In this document: positions 3,329 through 11,305 of the stretch, in pieces | Position numbering within the stretch: position 1 is the stretch's first letter | Layout of the letters: each line of letters opens with the position of its first letter | Source: Nitrospirota bacterium | GTDB taxonomy: Bacteria > Nitrospirota > Thermodesulfovibrionia > Thermodesulfovibrionales > Magnetobacteriaceae | Direction: 5' to 3' | Assembly: GCA_015233015.1 (NCBI GenBank) | Contig: JADFYO010000037.1 | Span: 1-32,309, forward strand | Length of the DNA: 32,309 nt | The notes under the pieces: model-generated | Databases searched by the model: none | The model's input: only the letters and a program-made list of their open reading frames with translations | What the model was told of the DNA's origin: nothing | Position numbers and translations under genes: made by a program

Positions 3329-5095
3329 TTATATGCGGCTGATGGCAAGGTCATATCGCGGCATGAAATAATGTCTCCTGTCTTTTGTCAAAACTATAAT
3401 AGACAGCCTGTGCTGCCCCTTGTCAATTAACGAAACAGGGATTTCGATTTCAAAGCCTGTTCGACGCGCTTTTATCTGATAACCTACGTCAGCCCTGTAT
3501 AAACCATAGAAGGCGGGAAATAACTTTTCATCGATTTTTATGTATATGCCGCCGGCGATATCTTTTTTTACAGCATCAACTGCCCAGCCTTCAATCTTCA
3601 TGATGTTATGGTTATCATCTAACACGACCTGCCCGTTAATCTTGTTCATGTTCTCCCCGTTAAGTACGCCTGAGCACAAAGCAGCGGAGTTCAGGGCGCT
3701 GAGGCTGCCAAGAGGAGGCAGAAAGGGACGCTGAAAGACGCTGTATTGTAATTTTTCCAATTCGGCTGCACTTTCTCTGAGCAGCTCCGGTGCAGGATAC
3801 TGAAAACGCTCCAGAACTTCATCAGGCTGATACCTGTAAGTGGATAAGTAGTAAGCCAGTATTTCCCTTCTCAGTTTTTCCGACCTGCCGCTTTTATATC
3901 CGTCTATGAAGGAATTAATAATGCTTACCAGCATGAATATCGATAAGGCAATAACTATGGTTCCGGTAAGTTTGTTCAGTTTTTCACCTGACGATACAAG
4001 CCCCAGATAAATCACATAGAGGCAAATTGGTATCATAAGCACAAAGGTTATATATCTGTCAGTCATAGTCCAGTAGTTAGGTAAAAGACCGGCACGTCCA
4101 ATAGCAATGAGAATGACCGTAACTAAAAAATAGCAAAGGGAGGCTATCCAGAATGAATATTTTTGCAGGAAGTTTCTATTTACAAATAGTAGGAGTAACA
4201 GACTGGCAGCGACAATAAAAAAACCGGAAATAAGTCTGACAGTCGTGCCGGAGAACAGGGAGCTGCCCGTCGTATATAAAAAGAAGTTAATGGTTGCAAC
4301 CGGATATTTTAAGAAGCCGTCTAAGGCGGGGTGCTGAGAAGGTTTTACGTAATTATGAAAATACAGGATAAACACTACCGCGCCAATAGCAGCCCACAGA
4401 AGGAGCATCTTAGTTCTATTTATTTTGCCTGAAACTAGTATTTGGAAAAAACCCGCCGGCCACACAAGCAGTCCCGAAATAATAGAAAACGAGGCGGCAG
4501 CCGCACTCACAGCGCCGAAAAAAAACTGCAACGGTAGATTATATTTATTTGTGGCTGAATTGATTTTCGACAGGAAATGAAAAGTAAGCAGCCCAAATAA
4601 AACGCAGTAGTAGATGCAGCTTTGATTTGCCCATAATATGTTTTCCCATGACCTCAGGCTTAGGATTATGTATGGAACGGGAAGGAAAAAAATCAGATAT
4701 GACTTCTTCTCAAGTATTTTCCTGAATTCGATATAAATCACAAGCAGGGCAATAATCATAGACAACTGTGTAAAAATCATCTCTGATTTTGAGTTGCAGG
4801 AGGTCAGCGAGCCAATGAAAATCTTGCCAATTCTCTGAGTTGCCGGCCTGTGTTCGTTATGCTGTTCAAACAGTTCTATAAGGGTATGTCTGCCCTGGAG
4901 AAATGAATTAACCCTGTGCATCTCATCCCACTCATCCATATAAGGGACGTTGACGCCAAACATCGATAAATACACAAACATAATCAAAACAGGCAGCACG
5001 CATAAAACAACCATTAGCCTAAGAATTAAAGACGAAGGGGGATAATCCCCCTTCACCCCTGTGCCGCCATTCGGCGGCTTCTGTACTCCGTTCAT
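3329..5095 (-). CDS. Polytopic membrane protein with C-terminal soluble domain, possibly GT-C-like
   Basis: The 588-residue protein has about eleven or twelve predicted membrane segments between residues 27 and 400, then a soluble C-terminal domain (about 485-588) containing IEGWAVD and LSIIVLTKDRRHY. The first loop carries acidic and His-rich motifs, YMDEWDEMHRV and QHNEHRPATQRI, recalling the acidic loop of GT-C glycosyltransferases; that link is an inference. Residues about 2-26 are encoded by the dispersed repeat at 5020-5090. The ATG at 5095 has an AAGAG just upstream; the alternative ATG at 5014 (Met28) begins right at the first membrane helix but has no clear Shine-Dalgarno. The gene diverges from the sugar cluster at 5216 and may work with it. 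Confidence 0.65.
   Translation of the reverse strand: MNGVQKPPNGGTGVKGDYPPSSLILRLMVVLCVLPVLIMFVYLSMFGVNVPYMDEWDEMHRVNSFLQGRHTLIELFEQHNEHRPATQRIGKIFIGSLTSCNSKSEMIFTQLSMIIALLVIYIEFRKILEKKSYLIFFLPVPYIILSLRSWENILWANQSCIYYCVLFGLLTFHFLSKINSATNKYNLPLQFFFGAVSAAAASFSIISGLLVWPAGFFQILVSGKINRTKMLLLWAAIGAVVFILYFHNYVKPSQHPALDGFLKYPVATINFFLYTTGSSLFSGTTVRLISGFFIVAASLLLLLFVNRNFLQKYSFWIASLCYFLVTVILIAIGRAGLLPNYWTMTDRYITFVLMIPICLYVIYLGLVSSGEKLNKLTGTIVIALSIFMLVSIINSFIDGYKSGRSEKLRREILAYYLSTYRYQPDEVLERFQYPAPELLRESAAELEKLQYSVFQRPFLPPLGSLSALNSAALCSGVLNGENMNKINGQVVLDDNHNIMKIEGWAVDAVKKDIAGGIYIKIDEKLFPAFYGLYRADVGYQIKARRTGFEIEIPVSLIDKGQHRLSIIVLTKDRRHYFMPRYDLAISRI
5020..5090 (-). repeat. Dispersed GC-hairpin repeat, copy A
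   Basis: Positions 5020-5062 are, on the minus strand, identical over 43 bases to 11263-11305. The adjoining 5063-5090 matches 11203-11227 with a few changes, including a GCCGCC/GGCGGC hairpin. The core (5034-5054) is a perfect palindrome, GAAGGGGGAT-T-ATCCCCCTTC. Copy B carries about 35 extra bases between the two hairpins. Copy A lies inside the coding sequence of the membrane protein. Confidence 0.85.
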
Positions 5096-5215: not shown

Positions 5216-6214
5216 ATGGATGTTGTAATTCGGGCTGACGCGTATCCCGCAATCGGCACGGGGCATTTGATGCGGTGTCTTGCCCTCGGTCAGTCGTTTA
5301 AGGACAGCGGAATGAGCGTAGGATTCGTCACATACTGCGAAGCCGCAGGGCTTCTTGAGAGGCTGTCGTCGCTGGAGGAGGGGTTTGAGATTACGCCTCT
5401 TAAAAGCAAGTCAGACACCGTTCTCCCGCCCTCTCGATGGGCAGTCGTTGACGGCGTCGCCTTTGACATGAGCTTTCATAAATCTATGAAAGACTCTGGC
5501 TCTAAACTCCTTATAATCGACGACATGGCAGCCCTTGAGTTTTATCACTGCGACATAGTCTTAAATCAGAACCTCCACGCTGACAGCCTTAAATACAACA
5601 TCAGTCCCGGAACAAAACTCCTCTTGGGGCCGGAGTATATCCTCCTTAGGCGCGAGTTTATTAAATACCGGGGAGTAGAAAAGGGCGTCGCCGACAAGTG
5701 CGTTAACGTCCTGATAACCCTTGGCGGGGCCGACAGGGAAAATTTCACTCAGAAGGTTCTGTCTTCGATCAGGAATGTAGAAGATATAGTAATTACTGTA
5801 GTGGTGGGCGCTGGAAATCCTAACATCGGGCAGATAAAAACGGTAAAAACGGAAAGTCCCGTAACAATTTTGCAAAATGTTAAAGACATGGCTAGCCTCA
5901 TGGCCTCACAAGACATTGCCGTCACATCCGGGGGCACTACCGTGTGGGAACTTGCCTTTATGGGTGTGCCCAGCGTGGTGGGCAGAATTGCCCCCATTGA
6001 GGACTATCTGGTTGCCGGGCTAAACAGCAGGGGATTATTTATCGACACAGGATGGTTTGAGAATGCAACAGAAGACGAAATCAGGGGAAATCTGTTAAAA
6101 TTATCATCAAATATGAAACTGCGAAGGCATATGTCCACACTTGGGCAAAGACTTGTCGATGGTTACGGCTACAGCAGGGTAATCGAGGCGATGGCAGCCG
6201 CGGTCAAAACATAA
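5216..6214 (+). CDS. PseG/SpsG-like nucleotide-sugar hydrolase (GT28-like fold)
   Basis: The 332-residue product resembles PseG, which releases UDP from UDP-2,4-diacetamido-2,4,6-trideoxy-altrose in pseudaminic acid synthesis, and the related SpsG proteins. It opens VIRADAYPAIGTGHLMRC, with His17 in the position of the catalytic His of characterised PseG. The C-terminal half has TLGGADRENF and the nucleotide-binding segment SGGTTVWELAFMGVPS (238-253). It leads a plus-strand run with ten bases to the next gene, which also includes a PseI-type synthase, supporting a sugar-acid role. No good Shine-Dalgarno precedes the ATG. The exact substrate cannot be told, since the upstream enzymes PseB, PseC and PseH are not in the window. 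Confidence 0.85.
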   Translation: MDVVIRADAYPAIGTGHLMRCLALGQSFKDSGMSVGFVTYCEAAGLLERLSSLEEGFEITPLKSKSDTVLPPSRWAVVDGVAFDMSFHKSMKDSGSKLLIIDDMAALEFYHCDIVLNQNLHADSLKYNISPGTKLLLGPEYILLRREFIKYRGVEKGVADKCVNVLITLGGADRENFTQKVLSSIRNVEDIVITVVVGAGNPNIGQIKTVKTESPVTILQNVKDMASLMASQDIAVTSGGTTVWELAFMGVPSVVGRIAPIEDYLVAGLNSRGLFIDTGWFENATEDEIRGNLLKLSSNMKLRRHMSTLGQRLVDGYGYSRVIEAMAAAVKT

Positions 6215-6224
6215 TAATGAGGAT

Positions 6225-7190
6225 ATGAATGTGAAATCTGATTTCAATGGCACACGCTGTGTTGTAACTGGAGGGGCCGGGGTAATCGGCAAGGAACTCC
6301 TTAGTATTTTGCAAGCGTCACACTGTCCTGTCCTGTCAATAGATAAAAACCCGCTTCCCGAAGGCTTCAATTCCACGGGCATAACTCATATAGTCAAAGA
6401 CCTCGCTATAGACTCCTTAGACGAGATAGACGAGTTTCGGCCAGAGATATTTTTCCACCTCGCGGCGGCCTTCGGGCGCTCGAAGGAATCCCCTGACTTC
6501 TGGGAGGTCAACTGGAAAGATAATACGCTCTTAAGCCACAGAACTACCGACGCGGCGCGCCGCATCGATAGCCTGCGCGTATTTGTCTTCGCCTCGTCGT
6601 ATCTTATATATTCTACGGCCCTCTATATGTCGGGCGCACTACGGCACGACCCGGTTTATCTAAAAGAGAACTCCCCGGTTTATCCTCGTAACATCACCGG
6701 CGCTTCGAAGTATTACACAGAGAAGGAGCTTGATTTTATCAGGGAATACTTCAGGCCGGAATTAAGAACCGTCTGCGCGCGAATATACCGCGTCTATGGC
6801 AGAGGCTCCAAAGACGTTATATCGCGATGGGTGAGGGCTGCCCTGAACAACGACCCGCTTGAGGTCTATAACAAGGATAACCGTTTTGATTATATCTATG
6901 CCCGCGATGTGGCCGAGGGGCTTTACAGGCTTGCTATGGCAGAGGAAGCGGAGGGTATCGTAAACCTCGGCTCAGGCAAAAGCCACAGCGTCGATGATGT
7001 CTTAAACACCATTTTCTCATTCAATAATGTAAAAATAATTGACCGCGGCAGGACCGAAGACTACGAAAACAGCGCGGCAGACATCGGACTGCTTAGAAAT
7101 CTCACAAAGTGGCAGCCCCCGACAACCCTTTCCGAGGGCATAGGCCAGATAGTCAGATACGAACGGGAGGTCTCGAAGTCCGCCCTATGA
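6225..7190 (+). CDS. NAD-dependent epimerase/dehydratase (extended SDR) with atypical active site
   Basis: The 321-residue protein is an extended short-chain dehydrogenase of the nucleotide-sugar epimerase type. The Rossmann motif is TGGAGVIG (15-22), followed by Asp40 (VLSID), FFHLAAAFG (76-84), FASSYLIYS (122-130) and FDYIYARDVAEG (221-232). The usual YxxxK is TGASK (158-162): Lys162 is kept but the Tyr position is Thr158, so catalysis, if any, must differ from the family norm. The next-nearest Tyr residues are 163 and 164. It starts ten bases after the pseG-like gene and its stop overlaps the next ATG (ATGA). The likely role is modification of a nucleotide sugar for the same product as its neighbours. 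Confidence 0.85.
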   Translation: MNVKSDFNGTRCVVTGGAGVIGKELLSILQASHCPVLSIDKNPLPEGFNSTGITHIVKDLAIDSLDEIDEFRPEIFFHLAAAFGRSKESPDFWEVNWKDNTLLSHRTTDAARRIDSLRVFVFASSYLIYSTALYMSGALRHDPVYLKENSPVYPRNITGASKYYTEKELDFIREYFRPELRTVCARIYRVYGRGSKDVISRWVRAALNNDPLEVYNKDNRFDYIYARDVAEGLYRLAMAEEAEGIVNLGSGKSHSVDDVLNTIFSFNNVKIIDRGRTEDYENSAADIGLLRNLTKWQPPTTLSEGIGQIVRYEREVSKSAL

Positions 7191-8197
7191 ATATTCTTAT
7201 CACAAGCGCCTCGAAAAAGGTAACCCTTGTTAAATGTTTTAAAGAGGCCGTCAAGAAAGAATGTAGTGGTGGTGGAAGAGTATATGCCGCCGATGTAAAC
7301 CCGCTCTCTGCGGCGCTTTACGCGGCAGACGGCCATTTTCTTGTCCCTCCGGACAATGACCCCAGGTTTATTGCCACGCTGATTAAGCTCTGCAAGGCCA
7401 ATAAGATAAAGCTGATTGTGCCGACAAGGGACGAAGAGCTCCCCGTGTTCGCAGCCGCTAAGGAAAGGTTTTGCTCGATTGGAACAACCGTGATGGCAGC
7501 CCCCCCTGAGACGATTGCCATATGTCAGGATAAAAGGCTGTTCGTGAATTATTGTCTGTTTCAGGGAATTGGGATACCGCGCTGCTATGACATCTCCCCT
7601 GAGGGAGTGGCCTTGGATCGTATAAGTTATCCGGCCTTTTTAAAACCCCGATTTGGGAAAGGAAGCGCAGGCACAGTGCGCGTCGACAACGAAGACGCGC
7701 TTAAGTATCTGCTAAAGTGCGAACCAGACGCAATCGTTCAGGAGTATGTGCGGGCGGATGAATATACGATAGATGTGTTTGCCGATTTTACGCGGCAGGT
7801 GATCTCGGTTGTCCCGCGCCTGCGGGCAGGGGTTTTTGGCGGCGAGTCGTTTATTGGGAAAACAGTAAACAACCCGTTACTAACTGCCGCGGCGGTAAGG
7901 CTTTCAGAGATGCTGGGGTTGGTTGGGCATAATACGGTGCAGTGTTTCTTAGATGACGGCAATGTAAAGTTCATAGAGGTAAACCCGCGTTACGGCGGCG
8001 GTGCCTCGTTAGGGATTGCCGCGGGGGCGGATACGCCTAGCTTTCTCATAAAACTATTAAAGGGCGAGAAGTTAAATCCAGTGATTGGACAATTCAAAGA
8101 CGGCCTCTACATGCTCAGATATACGGACGATATGTATCTGGACGCCTCGTTTTTTGAAAACGCTCTGGATTGCTCACGCCAGAAGGGGAGCCAGTGA
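7187..8197 (+). CDS. ATP-grasp ligase, carbamoyl-phosphate-synthase-like
   Basis: The 336-residue product is an ATP-grasp enzyme (PylC/CarB-like). An N-terminal pre-ATP-grasp domain begins MNILITSASKK and has VIPTRDEE-like LIVPTRDEELP (77-86). The ATP-binding part has FLKPRFGKGSAG (151-162) and VQEYV (184-188). The metal-binding signature is FIEVNPRYGGG (262-272) with conserved Glu, Asn and Arg. Such enzymes join a carboxylate to an amine or thiol through an acyl phosphate. In this operon it could attach an amino acid or acyl group to a sugar, an inference. The ATG at 7187 was chosen over an upstream in-frame start because it overlaps the previous stop and begins the conserved domain. Confidence 0.85.
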   Translation: MNILITSASKKVTLVKCFKEAVKKECSGGGRVYAADVNPLSAALYAADGHFLVPPDNDPRFIATLIKLCKANKIKLIVPTRDEELPVFAAAKERFCSIGTTVMAAPPETIAICQDKRLFVNYCLFQGIGIPRCYDISPEGVALDRISYPAFLKPRFGKGSAGTVRVDNEDALKYLLKCEPDAIVQEYVRADEYTIDVFADFTRQVISVVPRLRAGVFGGESFIGKTVNNPLLTAAAVRLSEMLGLVGHNTVQCFLDDGNVKFIEVNPRYGGGASLGIAAGADTPSFLIKLLKGEKLNPVIGQFKDGLYMLRYTDDMYLDASFFENALDCSRQKGSQ

Positions 8198-8198
8198 A

Positions 8199-8891
8199 AT
8201 GAAATTATCAGCGGCACTTTTTGATTTGGACGATACTCTTTACAGGGAAATGGACTATGTCAGTAGCGGGTTTAGGGCTGCGGCAAGGTTTTTAAGAAGC
8301 AAATACGGGTTTAATGAGGAAATAGTATTTAATAAGACGATGGACATACTTAATTCATTTGGACGTGGTAATGTGTTCAATAAACTCCTCGAAGAGTTGG
8401 GCATATTCGACGAGGAAATACTTCGCTATCTCATATACATTTACCGTACGCACAGGCCAGCGATTCACGTCTTCGGGGATGTCCTGCCGGTTCTTGAGAG
8501 CTTGCGCGACTCAGGCATTAAAACGGGACTGATAACCAACGGCATGGCAATTGTTCAGCAAAACAAGGTCGCAGCCCTTGGGATAGCCAGGCTCTTCGAT
8601 GTAATTATATATCCTGACGCCATTGGCCCTGAATACTGGAAGCCCTCTCCTGTTCCATTTAAGATGGCACTTAATGTTCTTGGCGTCCCCGCAGTGGCGA
8701 GTGTGTATGTAGGGGATAACCCATCGAGGGATTTCCTCGTGCCCAACGCCCTTGGCATGAAAAGTGTGCAGATTAAACGAGAGACCTGCATTGTTAAAGA
8801 AACACCTGAAGGACAGGGATACGCAGCGCAGACTATTATCGGCAGTTTATCTGAGTATTTTGGATCTGAATATTTCAGAGTGGCCACTTAA
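8199..8891 (+). CDS. HAD-superfamily phosphatase (subfamily IA)
   Basis: The 230-residue protein has all four HAD motifs: FDLDDT (Asp9 nucleophile, Asp11 acid/base), LITNG, the Lys in EYWKPSP, and YVGDNPSRDF. Motif IV suits a subfamily IA phosphatase with a helical cap. In a nonulosonate cluster such an enzyme could dephosphorylate a 9-phosphate sugar acid, as in sialic acid routes, but PseI-type synthases give an unphosphorylated product, so a different substrate is possible. The ATG at 8199 follows the ATP-grasp stop by one base and has GGGGAG upstream. A longer in-frame form from 8085 would overlap the preceding gene deeply and was not used. Confidence 0.85.
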   Translation: MKLSAALFDLDDTLYREMDYVSSGFRAAARFLRSKYGFNEEIVFNKTMDILNSFGRGNVFNKLLEELGIFDEEILRYLIYIYRTHRPAIHVFGDVLPVLESLRDSGIKTGLITNGMAIVQQNKVAALGIARLFDVIIYPDAIGPEYWKPSPVPFKMALNVLGVPAVASVYVGDNPSRDFLVPNALGMKSVQIKRETCIVKETPEGQGYAAQTIIGSLSEYFGSEYFRVAT

Positions 8892-8892
8892 A

Positions 8893-9960
8893 ATGCCAGC
8901 GATAACGATAGAAACGATAACGATAGAGAGCCGAAAAATCGGCGGCGGTGAGCCGGTGTTTATAATTGCCGAGCTGTCGGGCAACCACCAGCAGAACCTT
9001 TCTGTTGCCCTCGATGCGATTGCCGCGATGAAAGAGGCAGGGGCGGACGCCGTCAAACTCCAGACCTATCGCCCCGATACGATAACTATGGACTCTGCCC
9101 AAGAGTGTTTTCAAATAACCCAGGGCACGATATGGGATGGAAGAACTCTGTATCAGCTCTACACTGAGGCGGCGACCCCGTGGGATTGGTATCCACGGCT
9201 TAAGCACGCGGCTCAGGCGCTTGGCCTCATATGTTTTTCATCCCCGTTTGACATGACCGCGGTCGATTATCTTCAGACTATGGACGCCCCGGCATACAAG
9301 ATCGCATCGTTTGAAATAACCGACATTCCTCTTATCAGATACGCCGCATCGAAAGGAAAACCAATAATTCTCTCAACCGGCATTGCCGAACTGGCGGACA
9401 TAGAGGAGGCAATTACGGCGGTCAGAGAGACGGGCAACAATGAGATAGCGCTCCTGAAATGCGCCTCCGTGTATCCGACGCCGTTTGAGGAGCTGAACCT
9501 GCGGGCTATGCCGTATCTTGGGGAGCGTTACAGCGTGGTAATGGGGCTTTCAGACCATACGACGGGGCATTCGGCGGCGGCGGCGGCAACAGCCCTTGGG
9601 GCGTCAATAATAGAAAAACATTTTATATTAGATAAAGCATTAGGCGGTCCGGACGCGGCCTTTTCGCTTGACCCTGCCGAATTCGCCGCAATGGTGAAGG
9701 CCGTCAGAGAGGTAGAGGCTGCCCTTGGCCGAGCAGATTACACTATCTCTGAAAGGGTAGGGAAAAGCAGAGAACATGCCCGTTCCCTGTTTGCCGTAAA
9801 GGCAGTCAGGGCGCTTGAGCCATTTACAGAAGACAATGTCAGATCGATACGACCTGGTGCCGGCCTTCATCCCCGCCATTTAGACGAGGTACTGAGAAAA
9901 AGGGCGAAGGTGGCAATAGAAAAAGGTACGCCGCTGAGCTGGGACATTATGTGTGATTAA
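8893..9960 (+). CDS. pseI: PseI/NeuB-family nonulosonate synthase
   Basis: The 355-residue product is a NeuB-family synthase that condenses a hexosamine with phosphoenolpyruvate to give a nine-carbon sugar acid. The TIM barrel shows FIIAELSGNHQQNL (23-36), AGADAVKLQTYRPDTIT (49-65), the GLICFSSPFD segment, YKIASFE, LLKCASVYPTP, GLSDHTTGHS and IIEKHF. The C-terminal SAF antifreeze-like domain begins near residue 290 and includes RSIRPGAGLHP. SGNH in the first motif is typical of pseudaminic rather than sialic acid synthases. The start at 8893 fits family length. Its N-terminus includes a small duplication, ITIETITIE, from repeated GATAACGATAGA. Confidence 0.92.
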   Translation: MPAITIETITIESRKIGGGEPVFIIAELSGNHQQNLSVALDAIAAMKEAGADAVKLQTYRPDTITMDSAQECFQITQGTIWDGRTLYQLYTEAATPWDWYPRLKHAAQALGLICFSSPFDMTAVDYLQTMDAPAYKIASFEITDIPLIRYAASKGKPIILSTGIAELADIEEAITAVRETGNNEIALLKCASVYPTPFEELNLRAMPYLGERYSVVMGLSDHTTGHSAAAAATALGASIIEKHFILDKALGGPDAAFSLDPAEFAAMVKAVREVEAALGRADYTISERVGKSREHARSLFAVKAVRALEPFTEDNVRSIRPGAGLHPRHLDEVLRKRAKVAIEKGTPLSWDIMCD

Positions 9961-9968
9961 CGCGTCCC

Positions 9969-11141
9969 ATGACAATAGTTAACGCTATCATAATAGGCGC
10001 CGGGGCATCGGGGCTTTTCGCGGCGGCTGAGGAGGGAAGGCGCGGCCTTTTTGTAGTAGTACTGGAGCGTACCGCAACCATAGGGAACAAGATAAGGGTG
10101 TCTGGAGGCGGCAGGTGCAATTTTACTAATCTCAACGTTACGGCTGATAATTACATATCTGGCAATCCCAGCTTTTGCAAGTCTGCCCTTGCGGGGTTTA
10201 CCCCCTATGATTTTATTCAAATGGTTGAAAGTTATGGTGTCAGGTATTATGAAAAAGAACAAGGCCAGTTATTTTGCAGGGCAAGCTCGGGCGAGATAAT
10301 TGCCATGCTTCGCAAACGATGTGAAGAGGCGGGTGTGCGCATAATATCAAACACCAAGGTTCACGACATATCGAAGCGTGGCGACGTGTTTGTGACGACT
10401 ACCGATAACGGCACGTTTCATTCCAAATCGCTGGTAATAGCAACTGGGGGAATATCATACCCGCAGCTTGGCGCAACCCCGTTTGGGTATCGGATTGCGG
10501 GGCAGTTTGGCCTTAATGTCAAGCCCACGCACCCGGCCCTTGTGCCGCTTGTGTTTAACAGTGAAGACGGCGCAAATCTTACAATGCTCGCTGGCATCTC
10601 CATAGAAGCGGCAGTGAGCTGTAATGGAAGGGTCTTTCGTGGAGGCGTATTATTTACACAAAGGGGATTAAGCGGCCCTCCTATACTTCAGGCGTCTTCG
10701 TACTGGCGCGCGGGTGATTATATCTCGATAAATCTTTTTCCTGACGCAAACGCATACGAGTTTCTGTTAAGCAGGCGAAAACATAAGCAGGAGCTTTACA
10801 ATATACTGGAGTTTCCAAAGAACTTCGCCCGCAGATGGTGTGAACTTAATTCATACATGAAACCAATAAATCAATATAACGAAAAGGAGTTAAAAGAAAT
10901 AGCAGACAACCTCCAACACTGGCGCCTTTGGCCGGCAAAGACCGAAGGATACAAGAGGGCGGAGGCGGTAACCGGAGGAGTTGACACAGAGGAGCTGTCA
11001 TCGAAGACAATGGAGGCCAAAAGTGTAAAGGGGCTTTATTTTACCGGCGAGGTAGTAGACGTAACAGGCCAGTTAGGCGGATATAACCTGCACTGGGCAT
11101 GGGCGTCGGGGTATGCCTGTGGAAGACACATGCAGCCCTGA
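9969..11141 (+). CDS. BaiN/HI0933-like FAD-dependent oxidoreductase
   Basis: The 390-residue protein belongs to the HI0933/YhiN/BaiN flavoprotein family. The dinucleotide-binding motif is IIGAGASGLFAA (8-19), followed by the family signature GNKIRVSGGGRCNFTN. Further family features are ATGGISYPQLGATPFGY and the C-terminal TGEVVDVTGQLGGYNLHWAWASG, where the flavin-contacting GGYN motif lies. Members reduce unsaturated bile acid intermediates or have unknown roles. It follows the synthase gene by eight bases and may be co-transcribed, but its participation in sugar synthesis is not established; it may be simple co-location. Confidence 0.88.
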   Translation: MTIVNAIIIGAGASGLFAAAEEGRRGLFVVVLERTATIGNKIRVSGGGRCNFTNLNVTADNYISGNPSFCKSALAGFTPYDFIQMVESYGVRYYEKEQGQLFCRASSGEIIAMLRKRCEEAGVRIISNTKVHDISKRGDVFVTTTDNGTFHSKSLVIATGGISYPQLGATPFGYRIAGQFGLNVKPTHPALVPLVFNSEDGANLTMLAGISIEAAVSCNGRVFRGGVLFTQRGLSGPPILQASSYWRAGDYISINLFPDANAYEFLLSRRKHKQELYNILEFPKNFARRWCELNSYMKPINQYNEKELKEIADNLQHWRLWPAKTEGYKRAEAVTGGVDTEELSSKTMEAKSVKGLYFTGEVVDVTGQLGGYNLHWAWASGYACGRHMQP

Positions 11142-11202: not shown

Positions 11203-11305
11203 CGGAGTACCGAAGCCGCCAACGGGCGGCAGCTGGAACTTGATGATAAAACATGTGCGAGAACAGGGGTGAAGGGGGATTATCCCCCTTCGTCTTTAAT
11301 TCTTA
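11203..11305 (+). repeat. Dispersed GC-hairpin repeat, copy B
   Basis: This is the second copy of the repeat at 5020-5090, here intergenic and just upstream of the HIT gene. The segment 11263-11305 is identical to copy A over 43 bases and contains the perfect palindrome 11271-11291. A GCCGCC/GGCGGC hairpin is at 11215-11230. Read in the frame used by copy A it encodes KGDYPPSSLIL here too, which is the source of an in-frame upstream extension to the HIT gene. The hairpin followed by GTCTTTAATTCTT could end transcription from the sugar cluster. Confidence 0.85.

Follow-up and report, generated by a model that had tools for sequence, protein, structure and literature searches.

Which sugar acid is made by a set of genes that combines two enzymes of pseudaminic acid biosynthesis with an ATP-grasp ligase? 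The question is raised by positions 5216-9960 of a 32,309-nucleotide contig (JADFYO010000037.1, assembly GCA_015233015.1; hereafter the window) of a Nitrospirota bacterium of the family Magnetobacteriaceae. Five open reading frames without disruption encode there, in this order, a PseG-type hydrolase, a short-chain dehydrogenase/reductase (SDR), an ATP-grasp ligase, a phosphatase of the haloacid dehalogenase (HAD) family, and a PseI-type synthase. Judged from sequence, the operon would encode the later steps of a pseudaminic-acid-type pathway, a variant of a known route, and we consider it probable that the ATP-grasp ligase takes over the step of PseH by coupling a carboxylic acid to the 4-amine of the sugar intermediate.

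Distribution of the pathway over two clusters

In the textbook pseudaminic pathway, the 4-amine is acetylated by the N-acetyltransferase PseH. The window is one contig (C80) of a 3.78-Mb draft genome, 99.2% complete, and genome-wide profile searches placed none of PseB, PseC, PseH, and a CTP_transf_3 cytidylyltransferase on it. The first-pass annotation, made from the window alone, had listed PseB, PseC, PseH, and PseF as missing, and had called the cluster incomplete or possibly fed by a different precursor. The absence stands for the contig but not for the genome, except for PseH: on contig C61, PseB (TIGR03589, 466 bits) adjoins PseC (TIGR03588, 473 bits), both over the curated cut-offs, and a CTP_transf_3 cytidylyltransferase directly follows PseC and precedes glycosyltransferase-like genes. 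Instead of being incomplete, the pathway is thus distributed between two conserved clusters, and the presence of PseB and PseC leads us to reject a different precursor. The trio has flgF, flgG, flgA, and flgH as neighbors, and it recurs in seven relatives, in two of which, G236 and G242, ~0.7 kb separates the cytidylyltransferase from PseC. The C61 cytidylyltransferase does not match the PseF profile TIGR03584 at E≤1e-8; for the PseF-like protein at L023:10439-11599, relatives hold whole-length matches beside PseB/PseC. A search for a Maf-type flagellin glycosyltransferase (PF01973) found none.

PseH is the sole textbook gene of the pathway that was not found in the genome. It is absent from both conserved clusters and gave no match genome-wide at E≤1e-3, in a search that was positive in 13 of 14 control genomes. 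Acetyl- and formyltransferases of the types present in other PseI clusters were likewise not found in ~489 kb (13%) of the genome, and the PseG of the window has no fused acetyltransferase domain, GNAT being unmatched in the Pfam scan.

The acyl enzyme beside PseI

We compared neighborhoods in genomes with a bona fide PseI, 21 without the SDR/ATP-grasp pair and 14 with it. Of the 21 genomes without this module, 19 have a GNAT acetyltransferase, in many cases as a fusion with PseG, and/or a formyltransferase in the vicinity of PseI, compared with 1 of the 14 that carry the module; the contrast has a Fisher p of 9e-7 on genome counts that are non-independent because of kinship. Many of the PseI clusters without the module also hold a PIG-L deacetylase. 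In the f1 family, no acetyl- or formyltransferase was found near PseI, PseG, or PseB/PseC. This distribution is our main reason for placing the ATP-grasp ligase at the PseH step. It also supports the earlier suggestion of a sugar acid with an unusual amide, PseH being missing and an ATP-grasp enzyme standing where others have an acetyl- or formyltransferase.

Seven Pse clusters of Nitrospirota contain formyltransferases (L117, L122, L124, L126, L128, L132, and L134), with a PIG-L deacetylase in five of the seven, and their content suggests that they make N-formyl pseudaminic acids. Many Nitrospirota encode a PseG fusion protein with a PseH-like GNAT domain (L123, L125, L127, L129, L131, L133, L135, L098, and L099).

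We searched 396 genomes of the phylum and found the ATP-grasp ligase (E≤1e-25) in 19 and the SDR (E≤1e-50) in 15, each of them among the 19. The HAD phosphatase accompanies the pair in 13 of the 15, and PseI exceeds its cut-off in 14, the fifteenth (G386) having a PseI cut by a contig end. ATP-grasp matches at 26-32% in G254, G174, G324, and G015 come without the SDR and were taken as other paralogues. In the f1 family, the 12 genomes whose PseI passes the cut-off all carry SDR and ATP-grasp, and the search for PseH at E≤1e-15 is negative in each. A single family member, G310, lacks the module; none of its genes passes the PseI cut-off, and it possesses a PseH-like gene that falls under the family cut-off.

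The closest relative is "Candidatus Magnetominusculus"; the ATP-grasp ligase of "Candidatus Magnetominusculus xianensis" HCH-1 shares 82% identity with that of the window. A search for the same five-gene set, as the first-pass annotation had advised, found it in three Magnetominusculus-type genomes (HCH-1, Magnetominusculus sp. LBB02, and Nitrospirae bin nDJH5bin4), with identities of 64-82%. The order is thereby the same in four genomes including that of the window, an arrangement beyond chance. Scattering among relatives, which had been named as a point that would speak against a functional set, is seen in part: other genera of the family have the genes split over two or three places, yet retain them within the same genomes. 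The groupings seen in these are HAD/PseI, PseG/SDR/ATP-grasp, and ATP-grasp/HAD. Farther away, the order in L057 is PseB, PseC, methyltransferase, GNAT, SDR-ATP-grasp fusion, HAD, and PseI, and in the f7 genomes (L059 and L060) a 301-aa gene, a methyltransferase in L059, where it was scanned, lies between SDR and ATP-grasp.

The residues expected for catalysis are kept in two of the three module enzymes. In the ATP-grasp ligase, K116, E264, N266, and R268 are invariant among 19 sequences and conservation of K153 and E192 reaches 90% or more, so that the ATP/Mg ligands are retained, and D9, D11, T113, K148, and D178 of the HAD phosphatase are invariant in 15 homologues. The SDR keeps the nucleotide-binding GGxGxxG motif and K162. 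Instead of the tyrosine of its YxxxK motif, every one of the 15 aligned homologues has Thr or Cys, at the position to which the tyrosines of the solved SDRs MoeE5 and 4zrm align.

The operon and its surroundings

The tight coupling of the five genes reported earlier is confirmed, with refined starts: a 10-nucleotide gap separates PseG from SDR, SDR and ATP-grasp share a 4-nucleotide ATGA overlap, and two 1-nucleotide gaps follow. The start of the ATP-grasp gene was corrected to ATG 7187 from the mechanically assigned GTG 7109. Its product scores 292 bits against NF009405, under the cut-off of 390; the nearest family is the uncharacterized "carbamoyl phosphate synthase-like" PRK12767 group, and the nearest solved structure, 2pn1, is titled merely as a carbamoylphosphate synthase large subunit. 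The flavoprotein gene that follows PseI is probably cotranscribed with the five; it also lies 8 nucleotides after PseI in L047 and L063 but not in L046.

Table 1. Features of the window around the five-gene operon
Feature	Position	Strand	Matches and remarks
Inverted repeat, left copy	5020-5062		43 nt, perfect, palindromic core
588-aa protein, apparently membrane-bound	3329-5095	-	None matched in Pfam/NCBIfam; divergent from the operon
PseG-type UDP-sugar hydrolase, 332 aa	5216-6214	+	TIGR03590, 206 bits (cut-off 153.6)
Extended SDR, NAD-dependent epimerase family	6225-7190	+	PF01370; catalytic Tyr replaced by Thr (T158..K162)
ATP-grasp ligase, PRK12767/PylC-like group	7187-8197	+	PF21360, PF15632, PF02655
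HAD-family phosphatase	8199-8891	+	PF13419; DxDxT motif intact
PseI-type nonulosonate synthase (NeuB + SAF)	8893-9960	+	TIGR03586, 480 bits (cut-off 340); PF03102, PF08666
HI0933-like flavoprotein, sixth gene	9969-11141	+	TIGR00275, 393 bits; 8-nt gap after PseI
Inverted repeat, right copy	11263-11305		43 nt, perfect, palindromic core

The inverted repeat exactly flanks the six-gene operon. Four more copies with 1 to 6 mismatches occur within the ~489 kb of the same genome that were searched, for which reason we rejected the operon as a mobile or invertible unit; the element is probably a dispersed repeat. A second nonulosonate-like cluster lies on contig C76 (L024:8232-13188) and comprises a 574-aa cytidylyltransferase-like protein with an apparent radical-SAM part, a DegT aminotransferase, a PseF-like cytidylyltransferase, a glycosyltransferase, and a short NeuB of 268 aa.

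Proposed reactions and competing explanations

With the CMP-Pse5Ac7Ac pathway of Campylobacter and Helicobacter (PseB-C-H-G-I-F), the genome shares PseB, PseC, PseG, and PseI equivalogs over the cut-offs and a cytidylyltransferase. It differs in that PseH is missing, that an ATP-grasp ligase, an SDR, and a HAD phosphatase are added, that the genes form two clusters, and that the cytidylyltransferase, in contrast to PseF, lacks a TIGR03584 match and has an extra C-terminal part. Formyltransferase-type Pse clusters, also found in other Nitrospirota, likewise have an enzyme other than PseH in the acyl slot beside PseG and PseI, but they use a formyl donor, whereas we propose ATP-dependent ligation of a carboxylate. 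A precedent for such a replacement exists in Neisseria, where PglB, with an acetyltransferase, and PglB2, with an ATP-grasp domain, do not occur together and yield acetyl or glyceramido sugars (PMC11130364). In the meningococcal PglB2, the ATP-grasp domain takes the place of the acetyltransferase of PglB, and a glyceramido sugar results (PMC11130364; PMC6959607). We liken the two by role and not by sequence: PglB2, which makes the glyceramido sugar GATDH, places an ATP-grasp at the position of a UDP-4-amino-sugar acetyltransferase, as we propose here, with largely exclusive alternatives, but it is a phosphoglycosyltransferase/ATP-grasp fusion of a bacillosamine-type route, whereas the ATP-grasp ligase here is separate, belongs to a nonulosonate route, and comes with SDR and HAD. 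For the flagellin-modification genes sfmABCDE of Shewanella oneidensis, PseB and PseC are likewise encoded elsewhere, there is no clear PseH, and an SDR-type reductase and an ATP-grasp lie near a PseI-like protein; that set has a methyltransferase, lacks PseG, and has no HAD described, and its mildest mutant is that of the ATP-grasp.

From the logic of the slot, the chemistry of ATP-grasp enzymes, and the PglB2 precedent, we infer that a carboxylic acid is ligated to the 4-amine. PseB and PseC would first provide UDP-4-amino-4,6-dideoxy-L-AltNAc; the ATP-grasp ligase would then activate the acid with ATP and link it to the 4-amine, which becomes C7 of the final nonulosonate. PseG would remove UDP, PseI would condense the freed sugar with phosphoenolpyruvate, and the cytidylyltransferase beside PseB/PseC would activate the product with CMP. 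The HAD phosphatase would most likely supply or trim the acid, for example by forming glycerate from phosphoglycerate, and the same intermediate, acyl or nucleotide sugar, may be the substrate of the SDR without its tyrosine. Naming glycerate as the acid is a guess by analogy.

Several observations weigh against this scheme. In G022, a GNAT acetyltransferase adjoins the SDR-ATP-grasp fusion, which shows that both can be present in one genome; the PseI neighborhoods of L130 and L137 have neither a recognized acyl enzyme nor an ATP-grasp; and a non-PseH acetyltransferase may be encoded elsewhere in the genome. In addition, 12 of the 15 pair-carrying genomes belong to one family and the pair is found in only three lineages, so that the counts are non-independent. 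The ATP-grasps of two of these lineages (f7 and f24) lie together on a distant branch, which may mean that such enzymes entered the slot repeatedly or, alternatively, that this branch evolved fast. Finally, the extra C-terminal part of the PseF-like protein, ~150 aa, has no family assignment.

Some of these points would suit an explanation that we regard as unlikely but worth keeping in view, namely, that ordinary Pse5Ac7Ac is made with an unrecognized acetyltransferase, while SDR, ATP-grasp, and HAD decorate the finished sugar or a neighboring residue with an amino or hydroxy acid. The coexistence in G022 fits it, and so does the occurrence of non-PseH GNATs in such clusters (L136). Late decoration of the flagellin glycan in C. 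difficile needs an ATP-grasp gene (PMC5207246), and an ATP-grasp gene affects flagellin modification in Shewanella (PMC3765264). Against decoration speak the lack of any PseH-family match, the absence of the other acetyl- and formyltransferases from the ~489 kb and from the PseI, PseG, and PseB/PseC surroundings of the family, and the close linkage to PseG and PseI, which suggests that the module acts prior to CMP activation. The HAD phosphatase could also be read differently, as a 9-phosphatase acting on a nonulosonate 9-phosphate made by PseI, in the manner of the animal and Bacteroides routes. Its profile does match mammalian N-acylneuraminate-9-phosphatase structures (E ~1e-20), and several genomes have the HAD gene immediately before PseI, including some with ATP-grasp at another locus (L113-L115). 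We nevertheless judge this highly improbable: PseB and PseC products are 6-deoxy sugars and give a 9-deoxy nonulosonate with no 9-hydroxyl, and PseI clearly belongs to TIGR03586. Moreover, in Acholeplasma and Marinisporobacter, ATP-grasp and HAD stand together beside aminotransferase, dehydratase, or PglC-like sugar-transferase genes with no PseI-like match nearby, which favors a HAD that handles the acid over a nonulosonate phosphatase. That SDR, ATP-grasp, and HAD build an unrelated metabolite and merely adjoin PseG and PseI would agree with the separation of the module from PseI or PseG in some genera; it has very little probability in our view, given the conserved five-gene order and the fact that all 15 SDR genomes have both ATP-grasp and PseI, counting the truncated gene of G386.

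Returning to ligation at the PseH step, a broader idea, which we put forward tentatively and hold to be somewhat short of probable, is that ATP-dependent carboxylate ligation is a third route to the C7 amide besides acetyl-CoA and formyl transfer, provided by a dedicated SDR/ATP-grasp/HAD module whose SDR, without a catalytic tyrosine, does new chemistry on an acyl or sugar intermediate. Our literature search found no paper in the library covered that joins "Magnetominusculus" with "pseudaminic", and on ATP-grasp enzymes in relation to nonulosonic or pseudaminic acid it found only work on Shewanella, C. difficile, and Campylobacter phase variation. Nonulosonic acids differ chiefly in their amide groups, which govern the recognition of surfaces and flagella. 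With a genetic marker for ATP-ligated amides, such sugars could be predicted from genomes, and the enzyme might serve to attach chosen acids to CMP-Pse precursors. For uncultured magnetotactic Nitrospirota, the proposed pathway provides a first prediction of a surface sugar.

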